Source: Bacteroidota bacterium (lineage in GTDB: Bacteria; Bacteroidota; Ignavibacteria; Ignavibacteriales; Melioribacteraceae). Taken from it: a stretch of DNA of 64,000 nt. A program made the translations under genes and the position numbers. The stretch is from contig JAHISV010000009.1 of the NCBI GenBank assembly GCA_018818065.1, forward strand, positions 62,001 through 126,000. Direction: 5' to 3'. Position 1 is the first letter of the stretch, and the number at the start of each line of letters is the position of its first letter. The notes beneath the pieces were generated by a model. That model was not told the origin of the DNA. It saw nothing but the letters and a program-made list of their open reading frames with translations, and did no database searches. Of this stretch, positions 59,446-62,641 are shown piece after piece.

Positions 59446-59450
59446 CTTTG

Positions 59451-59525
59451 TGGGAGCTATAGGACTCGAACCTATGACCCTCGCCTTGTAAGGGCGATGC
59501 TCTGAACCAACTGAGCTAAGCTCCC
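59451..59525 (-). tRNA. tRNA-Val (anticodon TAC)
   Basis: Minus strand: acceptor GGGAGCT/AGCTCCC, D arm AGCTCAGTTGGTTCAGAGC, anticodon stem TCGCC/GGCGA with loop CTTACAA (anticodon TAC), T arm with GGTTCGAGTCC. CCA is not encoded. Confidence 0.95.
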
Positions 59526-59670: not shown

Positions 59671-59702
59671 TCATCATACCCTGCTTAGGCAGGGTATGAT
59701 GA
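59671..59702 (-). terminator. Perfect 14-bp hairpin after the [FeFe]-hydrogenase/chemoreceptor gene
   Basis: TCATCATACCCTGC (59671-59684) pairs perfectly with GCAGGGTATGATGA (59689-59702) around a TTAG loop. It lies 5 bp beyond the chemoreceptor stop on the minus strand. There is no strong T run, so it may work as an RNA-stabilising or Rho-assisted element rather than a classic terminator. Confidence 0.6.
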
Positions 59703-59707
59703 AAGAA

Positions 59708-62020
59708 TTAATTATTATAAGTAGCCAGCTGATTTTCCTTCACCTCATCAATCTTAAATTCAGAGACAAGTGACCTCAGTTTGTAGGTAAGATCATTCAA
59801 TGTTTCTGCGGAACCCGAGAGTTGAGTAATACCGGCAGAGGATTCTCTGGTAATATTCACTATTGTCTCGATACTCGTGTTTATCTGATCAGCTCTTTGA
59901 GATTGAGATTCGCTATTATTTGCTACTTTACTAACAGCCTCAACTACTTTCGAAGAACCAGACAATATTTCTTCGAGTGATTTACCGGCCAATATTGACT
60001 CATCTTTACCTTTTGAAACTTCCTCTGTTCCCGATTCAATTGATTTAACAGCAGTATGAGTCTCATCAATTATCGATTTAATCATACTAGATATCTCACT
60101 GGTAGCTTTTGATGTTCGCTCGGCAAGTTTTCTTACCTCGTCAGCTACTACAGCAAATCCTCTTCCCTGCTCGCCAGCGCGTGCTGCTTCAATTGCGGCA
60201 TTTAAGGCTAAAAGATTTGTCTGGTCAGCAATATCATCAATCACCTGAATTATCTCGCCAATTTTATCAGTACTTCCGCCCAGTCGCTCAATTATAGCAG
60301 CAGCTTCTGATACAACTCTGTCAATTTTTATCATTCCTTCGATTGTATTGTTTACAATCTTACTTCCTTCTACGGCAGATTGTCCAGCTTTACCAGCTAC
60401 ATCAGCTGCCAAACTTGCCGAGGCATGTGTATCAAGAATTGTTGAAGTCACCTGCTCTATAAAAGCTGAAACTTCCTGCGACTTAGTATTTTGCTCCAGA
60501 TTTCCCTCTGCCATTTGTCTTGATGTACTAACTATCTCATTGGAGGTATCTTCTGTTCTTAATACAACCTCATTCAACTCTCCAACTAAATTGCGAAAAT
60601 GTCCAACTGCCTCGTTAAATTCCTTAAACAAACCAGCTACGTCACTATCTCCCTCGTCATAAAATCTAACTGTAAGATCGCCTTTGGCAAACTGGTGTAT
60701 CATTGACATATTTGAGAGAATAAATTCCTGGATATTTTCAAGATAATGGTGGCAATTTTCTTTTTTGTTGAGACCATTATGGATGGCAATTGCCATTTTT
60801 TCGCAACTATCGTACCCACAAGCGGCACAATCTTTATAATCTTTTTCTTCACGTTTATTTAATGCCTTGTAAATCGCATCAAAGTCAATCTTGCTCGGAA
60901 TTTTTATTTCTGATAAATATTTTTGAGAATGATCAACATATTTTCTGTCATAAAGTCCTTTTTCCCATCTGCTATCAACTAACTTTCTAATTTTTTTAAG
61001 ATCAGTTTTTTTACTGTATTTAGTCTTATATTTTTCCTGCATTTGTAGATTTCGTTTTTCAACATGATGTTCAATCTCATCCATTGACTTACTTCTGTCT
61101 GTACCTGTTCCACCATTGCATCCAGCTTCACAATTCAGACAATCGATCAGCAAAGGATTGAATCCTTTTTGAATACTTTCTGGTAATTCGTTCAGATAAT
61201 GGTAGATAACCTCTGGTCCTTCAATTTTTCTGGTTAGGTTTTCAATTCCCGGGTGTTCTCTCTCTGCAGTCCGTAATAATCCACCGGGTGTTGAAAATAA
61301 TACCGCTCTTTCTGCTGATGGATTATCGTAATCAACTTCTGCAAAACGATTTAAATTTATTTTCTCTTTCTCAATATATTCTTTAATCTTTTTCATTGTA
61401 ACGTTATAGTCACCCATTCCAACTTCTTCAAATTCACGCTTCTTGGCGATACAAGGTGAGATAATAACAGTTTTGTGTGAAGAATATTCTTTATAATATT
61501 TCTTCACCATTTTAATAGTGTGCATCATTGGGCTATCAGCAGGCGCCAGATATTTAATTAATTCTGGTTTATAAATTTCAACGTAGCTTACAATTGCAGG
61601 GCACGGCTGTGCTATAATGCATTTGGGACCATTTTCCTTTACATGCTCAAGATAAGATTTAACGGTGAGTTCCGCACCAAAACTAACATCAAAGTTGGCC
61701 TTTACCCCCAGTGATTTTAACCACCCGTTAAATTTCAAATACATATTCGGGAAATTAGAAGATACAGCAGGGGCAACAACTGAGACCATTTTAACACCCT
61801 TACGCAGGTCATTCAACCATAATTCAAAATCATCAACTCCGGTTCGTGCGCCATGTGTGCAGGCATCAATACATTGTCCGCAGCCAATGCACAGTTCAGA
61901 ATTTAACTCAACATAATCTCCATTAGCATTATTGCAATATTTTACCGGACAGACAGAGATGCATTGATGACAATTAATGCATTTAGATTCATCTACATTT
62001 ACAACTTGAGATAGATTCAT
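59708..62020 (-). CDS. Soluble chemoreceptor with sensory [FeFe]-hydrogenase-like input domain
   Basis: 770 residues, no membrane segment. Two 4Fe-4S ferredoxin motifs (C14/17/20/24 and C44/47/50/54), then an Fe-only hydrogenase large-subunit domain with the four H-cluster Cys positions: C140 (AQPCPAIV), C190 (SPCIAKK), C297 and C301 (NCEAGCNGG). In catalytic enzymes the first motif is TSCCP; here it is AQPCP, so the proton-relay Cys is missing. A four-Cys FeS domain follows (C398, C401, C406, C423), then HAMP-like and the methyl-accepting signalling domain with the canonical tip ([20 protein letters not shown]). This is the chemotaxis-linked sensory group of [FeFe] hydrogenases, presumed to report H2 or redox state to CheA. 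ATG is followed by no signal peptide. Confidence 0.93.
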
Positions 62021-62568
62021 AATATTTACCAGTTTAGTTCAAAAGTATTTTACGATATAGCATTTCTTGTTCTTTACTTGCTAGCTCCACTTATAATGAA
62101 GAGTTGGCTTATATATAGTTTCCTTACTGAATGAAGGAAAATCAACACACAGACTAATTTTTTCTATAAACGAAAATATATTGGTTTTAAAACTGGATTT
62201 TGAGTTGTTAAGCAAGCGTGAGAATGCAATTTTACACTTTAAATGTTGCAAGAGGTAAATAATATGTAAGATATGTCCGAACATTATTTTTTTTATCTAC
62301 TATAATTTTTCTATAAAAACACTTTGTTATCCAGACTATCGAAAAAATGTAGTATTAGTTTATGCCCTAAAGTAATAAAAGTGGATTTTTGAGAATTGTT
62401 GATAATCCTTAAAACTGGATAAAAGGAAAAATTCAAGGAAATTGTGGGCAAAAATCAAACAAAGGAAGGATCAAATATATTATTTGAAGATAAAGGAAAT
62501 ATTAAAACTAATATTCTAAGAGAAAGAATAATACAACTAATTTATAGAATCACCAAAAAACTCTTTTG
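62021..62568. other. Long AT-rich intergenic region
   Basis: 548 bp between the hydrogenase-type chemoreceptor and tRNA-Gly. I find no credible gene; a 67-codon frame on the minus strand (62081-62284) has no ribosome site or recognisable motif. Four 9-mers resemble DnaA boxes (TTATCTACT 62293, TTATCCAGA 62327, and on the other strand TTATCAACA 62405 and TTATCCAGT 62422), but none is a perfect TTATCCACA and no replication gene is near. The chemoreceptor promoter must be here. Confidence 0.5.
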
Positions 62569-62641
62569 AGCGGGTAACGGGACTCGAACCCGTGACCCTC
62601 AGCTTGGGAAGCTGATGCTCTACCAACTGAGCTACACCCGC
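62569..62641 (-). tRNA. tRNA-Gly (anticodon CCC)
   Basis: Minus strand: acceptor GCGGGTG/TACCCGC with discriminator T, D arm AGCTCAGTTGGTAGAGC, anticodon stem TCAGC/GCTGA with loop TTCCCAA (anticodon CCC), T arm ACGGG-TTCGAGT-CCCGT. CCA is not encoded. It stands 89 bp from the divergent peptidase start. Confidence 0.95.

Follow-up and report, generated by a model that had tools for sequence, protein, structure and literature searches.

The closest described relatives of the receptor considered here belong to the sensory [FeFe]-hydrogenases. HydDB lists among these a group C2, named in 2016, as 'Chemotactic (putative)' (PMC5037454); the original prediction for this locus had pointed to a chemotaxis-linked group in hydrogenase surveys. 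Survey assignments to C2 are not always reliable, and one study dropped its C2 calls at validation (PMC9431212). TamHydS, the group D enzyme of Thermoanaerobacter mathranii, is a slow enzyme that reacts with H2, with Ser at M353, Leu at M497 and C299 lost (PMC11803613, PMC8163306). The proton path of group D uses E252 and E289 (PMC10407848), and the C-terminal cluster of TamHydS is not reduced by H2, the proposed signal being a change in secondary structure (PMC13104023). Pro at the relay position has been reported for roughly 10% of the sensory sequences (PMC10055695).

Our literature search, with subscription journals mostly outside its scope, returned published papers that name taxis toward H2, but none that connects hydrogen taxis with a hydrogenase and none that reports experiments on a fusion of hydrogenase and chemoreceptor. 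To our knowledge, no receptor has been assigned to H2 taxis. The receptor described here is a further member of a known putative kind (probably C2); new are the completeness of its genomic setting, the residues specific to its clade and the mixed outputs within one module clade.

Architecture and surroundings of the receptor gene

The window, i.e., the whole stretch of 64,000 nucleotides that was analyzed, encodes on its reverse strand (59708..62020, ATG start) a protein of 770 aa in which a hydrogenase-type sensor and a chemoreceptor (MCP) signaling domain are fused in the same reading frame, which provides the coupling to a methyl-accepting chemotaxis protein expected of HydDB C2. All features of this protein given below lie on the same strand. 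The N-terminal part comprises two [4Fe-4S] ferredoxin (Fer4) motifs detected with Pfam (aa 14-54, 61859..61981; Cys 14, 17, 20, 24, 44, 47, 50 and 54) and an [FeFe]-hydrogenase H-domain (Fe_hyd_lg_C, PF02906; aa 77-304, 61109..61792; 117.9 bits, cut-off 22.1). These are followed by a C-terminal FeS domain of the form Cx2Cx4Cx16C (PF04060; aa 397-423, 60752..60832), which scores just below the cut-off (21.8 versus 23 bits) and has all four Cys. The signaling domain (MCPsignal, PF00015; aa 539-723, 59852..60406) scores 159.4 bits against a cut-off of 34.6, and its CheA/CheW-contact tip of 11 residues is found at aa 607-617 (60170..60202).

In the alignment, the four Cys ligands of the H-cluster are distributed over three motifs, namely L1, AQPCP (aa 137-141, 61598..61612; C140, equivalent to C300), L2, SPCIAKK (aa 188-194, 61439..61459; C190, equivalent to C355) and L3, DCLNCEAGC (aa 293-301, 61118..61144; C297 and C301, equivalent to C499 and C503), and K193 occupies the position of K358, so that the residues for binding an H-cluster are complete. 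The residues characteristic of catalytic group A enzymes are absent, with Pro139 at the position of the proton-relay C299, Ser188 at M353 and Leu295 at M497, and the score with the group A model of NCBIfam is far below the cut-off (108.6 versus 405.95). An extra, clade-specific Cys294 is present in L3. The Cx2Cx4Cx16C domain, the altered C299, M353 and M497 and the fused signaling domain are the hallmarks of group C (sensory) hydrogenases.

A Kyte-Doolittle scan of the 770 aa detected no membrane helix, the maximal mean over 19 residues being 0.92 compared to 2.16-3.28 in the other receptors of the genome; together with the complete signaling hairpin and the intact tip, this is the make-up of a cytosolic MCP. 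A cytosolic chemoreceptor built on a sensory [FeFe]-hydrogenase module is the best-supported reading, in agreement with the original prediction, which had also correctly identified the four H-cluster Cys, the two ferredoxin clusters with an additional FeS domain, the missing relay Cys in AQPCP and an MCP tip joined to the module with no membrane anchor. The HAMP domain that it placed between them, a usual but not essential part of such receptors, was overstated: there is only a weak HAMP-like stretch (PF00672; aa 440-473, 60602..60703; 20.6 bits, E 5.5e-4, cut-off 25). The alignment to solved chemoreceptors begins at aa 440-442, which falls within their HAMP region.

The AlphaFold model of the full-length protein (mean pLDDT 69, with residues 1-59 below 50) contains a long helical hairpin at aa 460-754 that turns at about aa 615-619. 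The hydrogenase part of the model matches CbA5H, TmHydABC and CpI in Foldseek (E 1e-11 to 1e-9). Given the moderate quality of the full-length model, it was not used for placing Cys294 relative to the cluster.

The receptor gene lies between genes for tRNA-Val (59450-59525) and tRNA-Gly (62568-62641), all three on one strand. A genomic island bounded by the tRNA genes is rejected: the two tRNAs differ, the G+C content is unremarkable, and a search for direct repeats at the flanks yielded nothing beyond the similarity of the tRNAs. An operon is likewise rejected: the neighbors are tRNA genes, and the flanking protein-coding genes lie on the other strand, so that the receptor gene stands alone. 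Directly 3′ of its stop codon is a 14-bp inverted repeat without mismatches whose arms enclose a 4-nt loop (59671..59702, reverse strand), a possible transcript end, where a terminator scan found no U-tail terminator.

The module clade and its outputs

The nearest named relatives come from Melioribacteraceae and Ignavibacteriales, and the organism accordingly is probably one of the Ignavibacteria. Relatives of the module were sought over one genome per species and, separately, in 391 genomes of the class. Close relatives are present in five phyla, Ignavibacteriota, Bacteroidota, Spirochaetota, Bacillota (Syntrophomonadaceae) and Cloacimonadota, and in 13 of the 391 class genomes. Maximum-likelihood analysis unites the 23 usable modules in a single clade (support 100/99) that is distinct from group A and from two further sets of modules, the C1-like ones fused to kinases and the C3-like ones fused to PAS domains. 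The tree took in no TmHydS, TamHydS or HydDB reference sequences, and the placement of the clade relative to other groups is less sure than its unity because a long branch separates it from them.

The four H-cluster Cys and K358, the equivalents of A230-P231 and S323-P324, as well as Pro at C299, Ser at M353 and Leu at M497 are invariant in all 23 members. The second ferredoxin-type cluster (Cys 44-54) is retained throughout, whereas the first (Cys 14-24) is found in 22 of the 23, the remaining one being truncated at the N-terminus; Cys 398, 401 and 406 of the C-terminal FeS domain are present in 23/23 and Cys 423 in 22/23. Leu248 and Asp293, again in every member, occupy the positions of E252 and E289, which were matched via the published motif and not through an alignment with TamHydS itself. 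The path of group D (TamHydS-type) that is characterized by E252 and E289 is thus absent, so that protons would have to take another way, for which Cys294, located beside Leu295 and present in 22/23 members, is a candidate only by virtue of its conservation.

The outputs of the clade are diverse. In 18 cases the module is joined to a chemoreceptor, in two to a SpoIIE phosphatase (L114:2680-7979 and L108:502-2658) and in one to a hybrid kinase (L111:1412-12468), and two modules stand alone (L049 and L056). In the hybrid kinase (1348 aa), the module is joined to PAS, HisKA, HATPase, two receivers and Hpt, and the same locus contains a gene for a HydE-like radical SAM protein as well as a HydG match (G129:C107:40203-41549). 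The SpoIIE-fused module of L114 adjoins genes for SiaC and DUF6272, an arrangement that suggests an H2- or redox-gated SiaA-like switch. One stand-alone module (L049:2600-8190) is preceded by a Cache-HAMP-GAF protein, and CheR and CheB are encoded after it, possibly a split version of the system; the other (L056:5001-7803) adjoins a gene for a nucleotide cyclase that bears a heme-NO-associated domain.

The presence of one conserved sensor module on differing outputs argues for sensing as the job of the module and makes the clade a natural system for testing signal transfer from an H-cluster. More speculatively, the clade could represent a distinct H2-sensing cassette, marked by the Pro, the Ser and the Asp-Cys-Leu before C499, that employs a proton or thiol route via Cys294 different from those of groups A and D and has been joined to chemoreceptors, a hybrid kinase and, beside SiaC, a SpoIIE phosphatase; we consider this generalization doubtful.

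Maturases and chemotaxis proteins

The genome of the receptor has 3.95 Mb and is 86.6% complete. The original prediction noted that the window contains neither another hydrogenase nor hydE, hydF or hydG, that maturation would have to be supplied elsewhere or the H-cluster might be altered, and that the genome should be searched for hydEFG and CheA/CheW. This search located the three maturases and CheA. The other Fe_hyd_lg_C proteins are encoded on contig C9, HydG (538.8 bits, cut-off 312.2) and HydE (317.5 bits, cut-off 254.6) by adjacent genes on contig C13, and HydF (541.3 bits, cut-off 325.6) on contig C15, the three maturases all exceeding the curated cut-offs; the possibility that the organism lacks them is rejected. 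Contig C9 carries two hydrogenases of group A, both of which pass the NADH-linked A6 model, and, as a separate protein, a fusion of hydrogenase and histidine kinase (L006:2590-4620). In the second group A hydrogenase (L005:16718-18631), L1 reads TSCSP, with Ser at the C300 ligand position, a substitution shared by 4 of the 8 aligned group A sequences.

CheA, CheB and CheR are encoded beside FliF and FliG on contig C5, and there are two further CheA proteins. The receptor gene is a concrete and complete candidate for an H2-taxis receptor, since a single genome provides the sensor, its maturases, the chemotaxis kinase and the genes of the flagellum. In an unusual chemotaxis adaptor (L020:7910-9865), CheW is joined to a receiver and to an NMT1-like substrate-binding domain.

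Among the membrane receptors of the genome, the four closest are 45-48% identical to the signaling domain, and their alignments contain no more than two gap columns. The domain is longer than that of Escherichia coli Tsr (class 36H) by two 14-residue steps and can be aligned gap-free with a Pseudomonas aromatic-acid receptor, which would fit class 40H. Given this similarity and length, the protein should be able to join the same arrays as the membrane receptors. At some sites, the usual glutamate pairs of the sister receptors (SSEEMA) are changed to TSRQMA, and adaptation by methylation may accordingly be reduced.

In the class, HydG is found in 12 of the 13 carriers of the clade module compared to 82 of the 391 genomes (21%; Fisher p 4e-8, a value that is too optimistic given that the genomes are related); the carriers encode other hydrogenases as well. 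The single carrier without HydG (G092) also has no HydF, yet encodes three other [FeFe]-hydrogenases. Across the clade, with G092 and G395 counted once on account of identical matches at identical places, HydG is present in 18 of the 23 distinct genomes; of the remaining five, four have neither HydG nor HydF, and in one only HydG is missing. Because all five carry other [FeFe]-hydrogenase genes, the absence of HydG is likely to reflect assembly gaps, and those of the five that were traced by name are MAGs. CheA is present in 22 of the 23, the genome without it (G384) being a SpoIIE-fused case. In one locus (L110), hydG comes after the receptor gene, and in another (L115), CheW and a membrane receptor are encoded upstream of it.

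Proposed mode of action and relationship to known systems

The type of sensor, the maturases of the same genome and the signaling genes together indicate that the receptor probably steers the cell by H2 or by the redox state of the cell. More specifically, we consider it fairly probable that the protein is a soluble chemoreceptor in which a matured H-cluster of low turnover senses H2, or H2 and redox state, and which feeds CheA. The residues altered near the H-cluster are also altered in TamHydS, which retains a slow reaction with H2, and this speaks for the scheme. Its domains and ligands, the maturases, CheA, CheB and CheR and the flagellar genes are directly seen in the sequence; the ligand, the sign of the response and all dynamic steps we infer. 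HydE, HydF and HydG would install the di-iron site on the [4Fe-4S] cluster to which C140, C190, C297 and C301 are the ligands; H2 would then bind and reduce the H-cluster, and electrons would be shared with the ferredoxin-type clusters, so that the module would report H2 versus the redox poise of the cell without fast turnover. The change of state would shift the C-terminal FeS domain and the HAMP-like helices, the long helical hairpin would alter CheA activity in arrays common to the membrane receptors, and CheY would steer the flagellum. Counted against this scheme are the weak HAMP, the HydG-less genomes of the clade, the TSRQMA substitution and the C-terminal cluster of TamHydS, whose failure to be reduced by H2 makes the signal route uncertain; a change in secondary structure may move the receptor helices instead, by analogy with TamHydS.

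The same FeS clusters, conserved in nearly all clade members, could belong to a receptor for redox or energy taxis whose clusters equilibrate with ferredoxin and for which H2 would be no more than one input among several, all the more so since the separate hydrogenase-histidine kinase could already report H2. However, the four ligands and K358 in 23/23 members and HydG in nearly all carriers of the class would be costly if FeS redox sufficed, and we regard this explanation as rather unlikely. It is highly improbable that the module has no di-iron site and plays an Fe-S or structural role as in Nar1-type proteins: the Pro at the relay position and the four genomes devoid of both HydG and HydF point in this direction, but the ligands and K358 are invariant, the association with the maturases is strong, and the gaps in HydG are probably those of the assemblies. 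About as improbable is a sensor not of H2 but of CO, O2 or NO that would bind these gases at an open iron site. TamHydS reacts fast with O2 and the H-clusters of other enzymes bind CO, whereas CO binding is weak in the characterized sensory enzymes (PMC8163306), and the receptor displays no sequence feature indicative of these gases.

The H2 receptor feeding CheA that we favor shares with HydDB C2 the sensory-type hydrogenase domain proposed to act via methyl-accepting chemotaxis proteins (PMC5037454), and C2 is likely to be the appropriate group name. However, its clade also includes kinase- and phosphatase-fused members, so that the type of output does not follow the phylogeny of the module. 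The hydrogenase-histidine kinase of the same genome, which is C1-like, has the same Fer4-H-FeS order but is encoded beside a group A hydrogenase and differs in a module that is about 29-32% identical, in Gly at M353, in the HisKA-HATPase output and in one residue fewer between the two Cys of L3. TmHydS of Thermotoga maritima (group C) is similar in its sensory module, C-terminal FeS domain and fused signaling domain but has a PAS output, Gly at M353, Ser at M497 and Ala at C299 (PMC10055695). TamHydS resembles the receptor in the two Fer4 motifs, the H-domain, Cx2Cx4Cx16C, Ser at M353, Leu at M497 and the lack of the relay Cys, whereas the receptor has Pro rather than Ala at C299, Leu at the proton-transfer position E252 and Asp at E289 (PMC11803613, PMC10407848), and possesses in addition Cys294 and a fused output domain.
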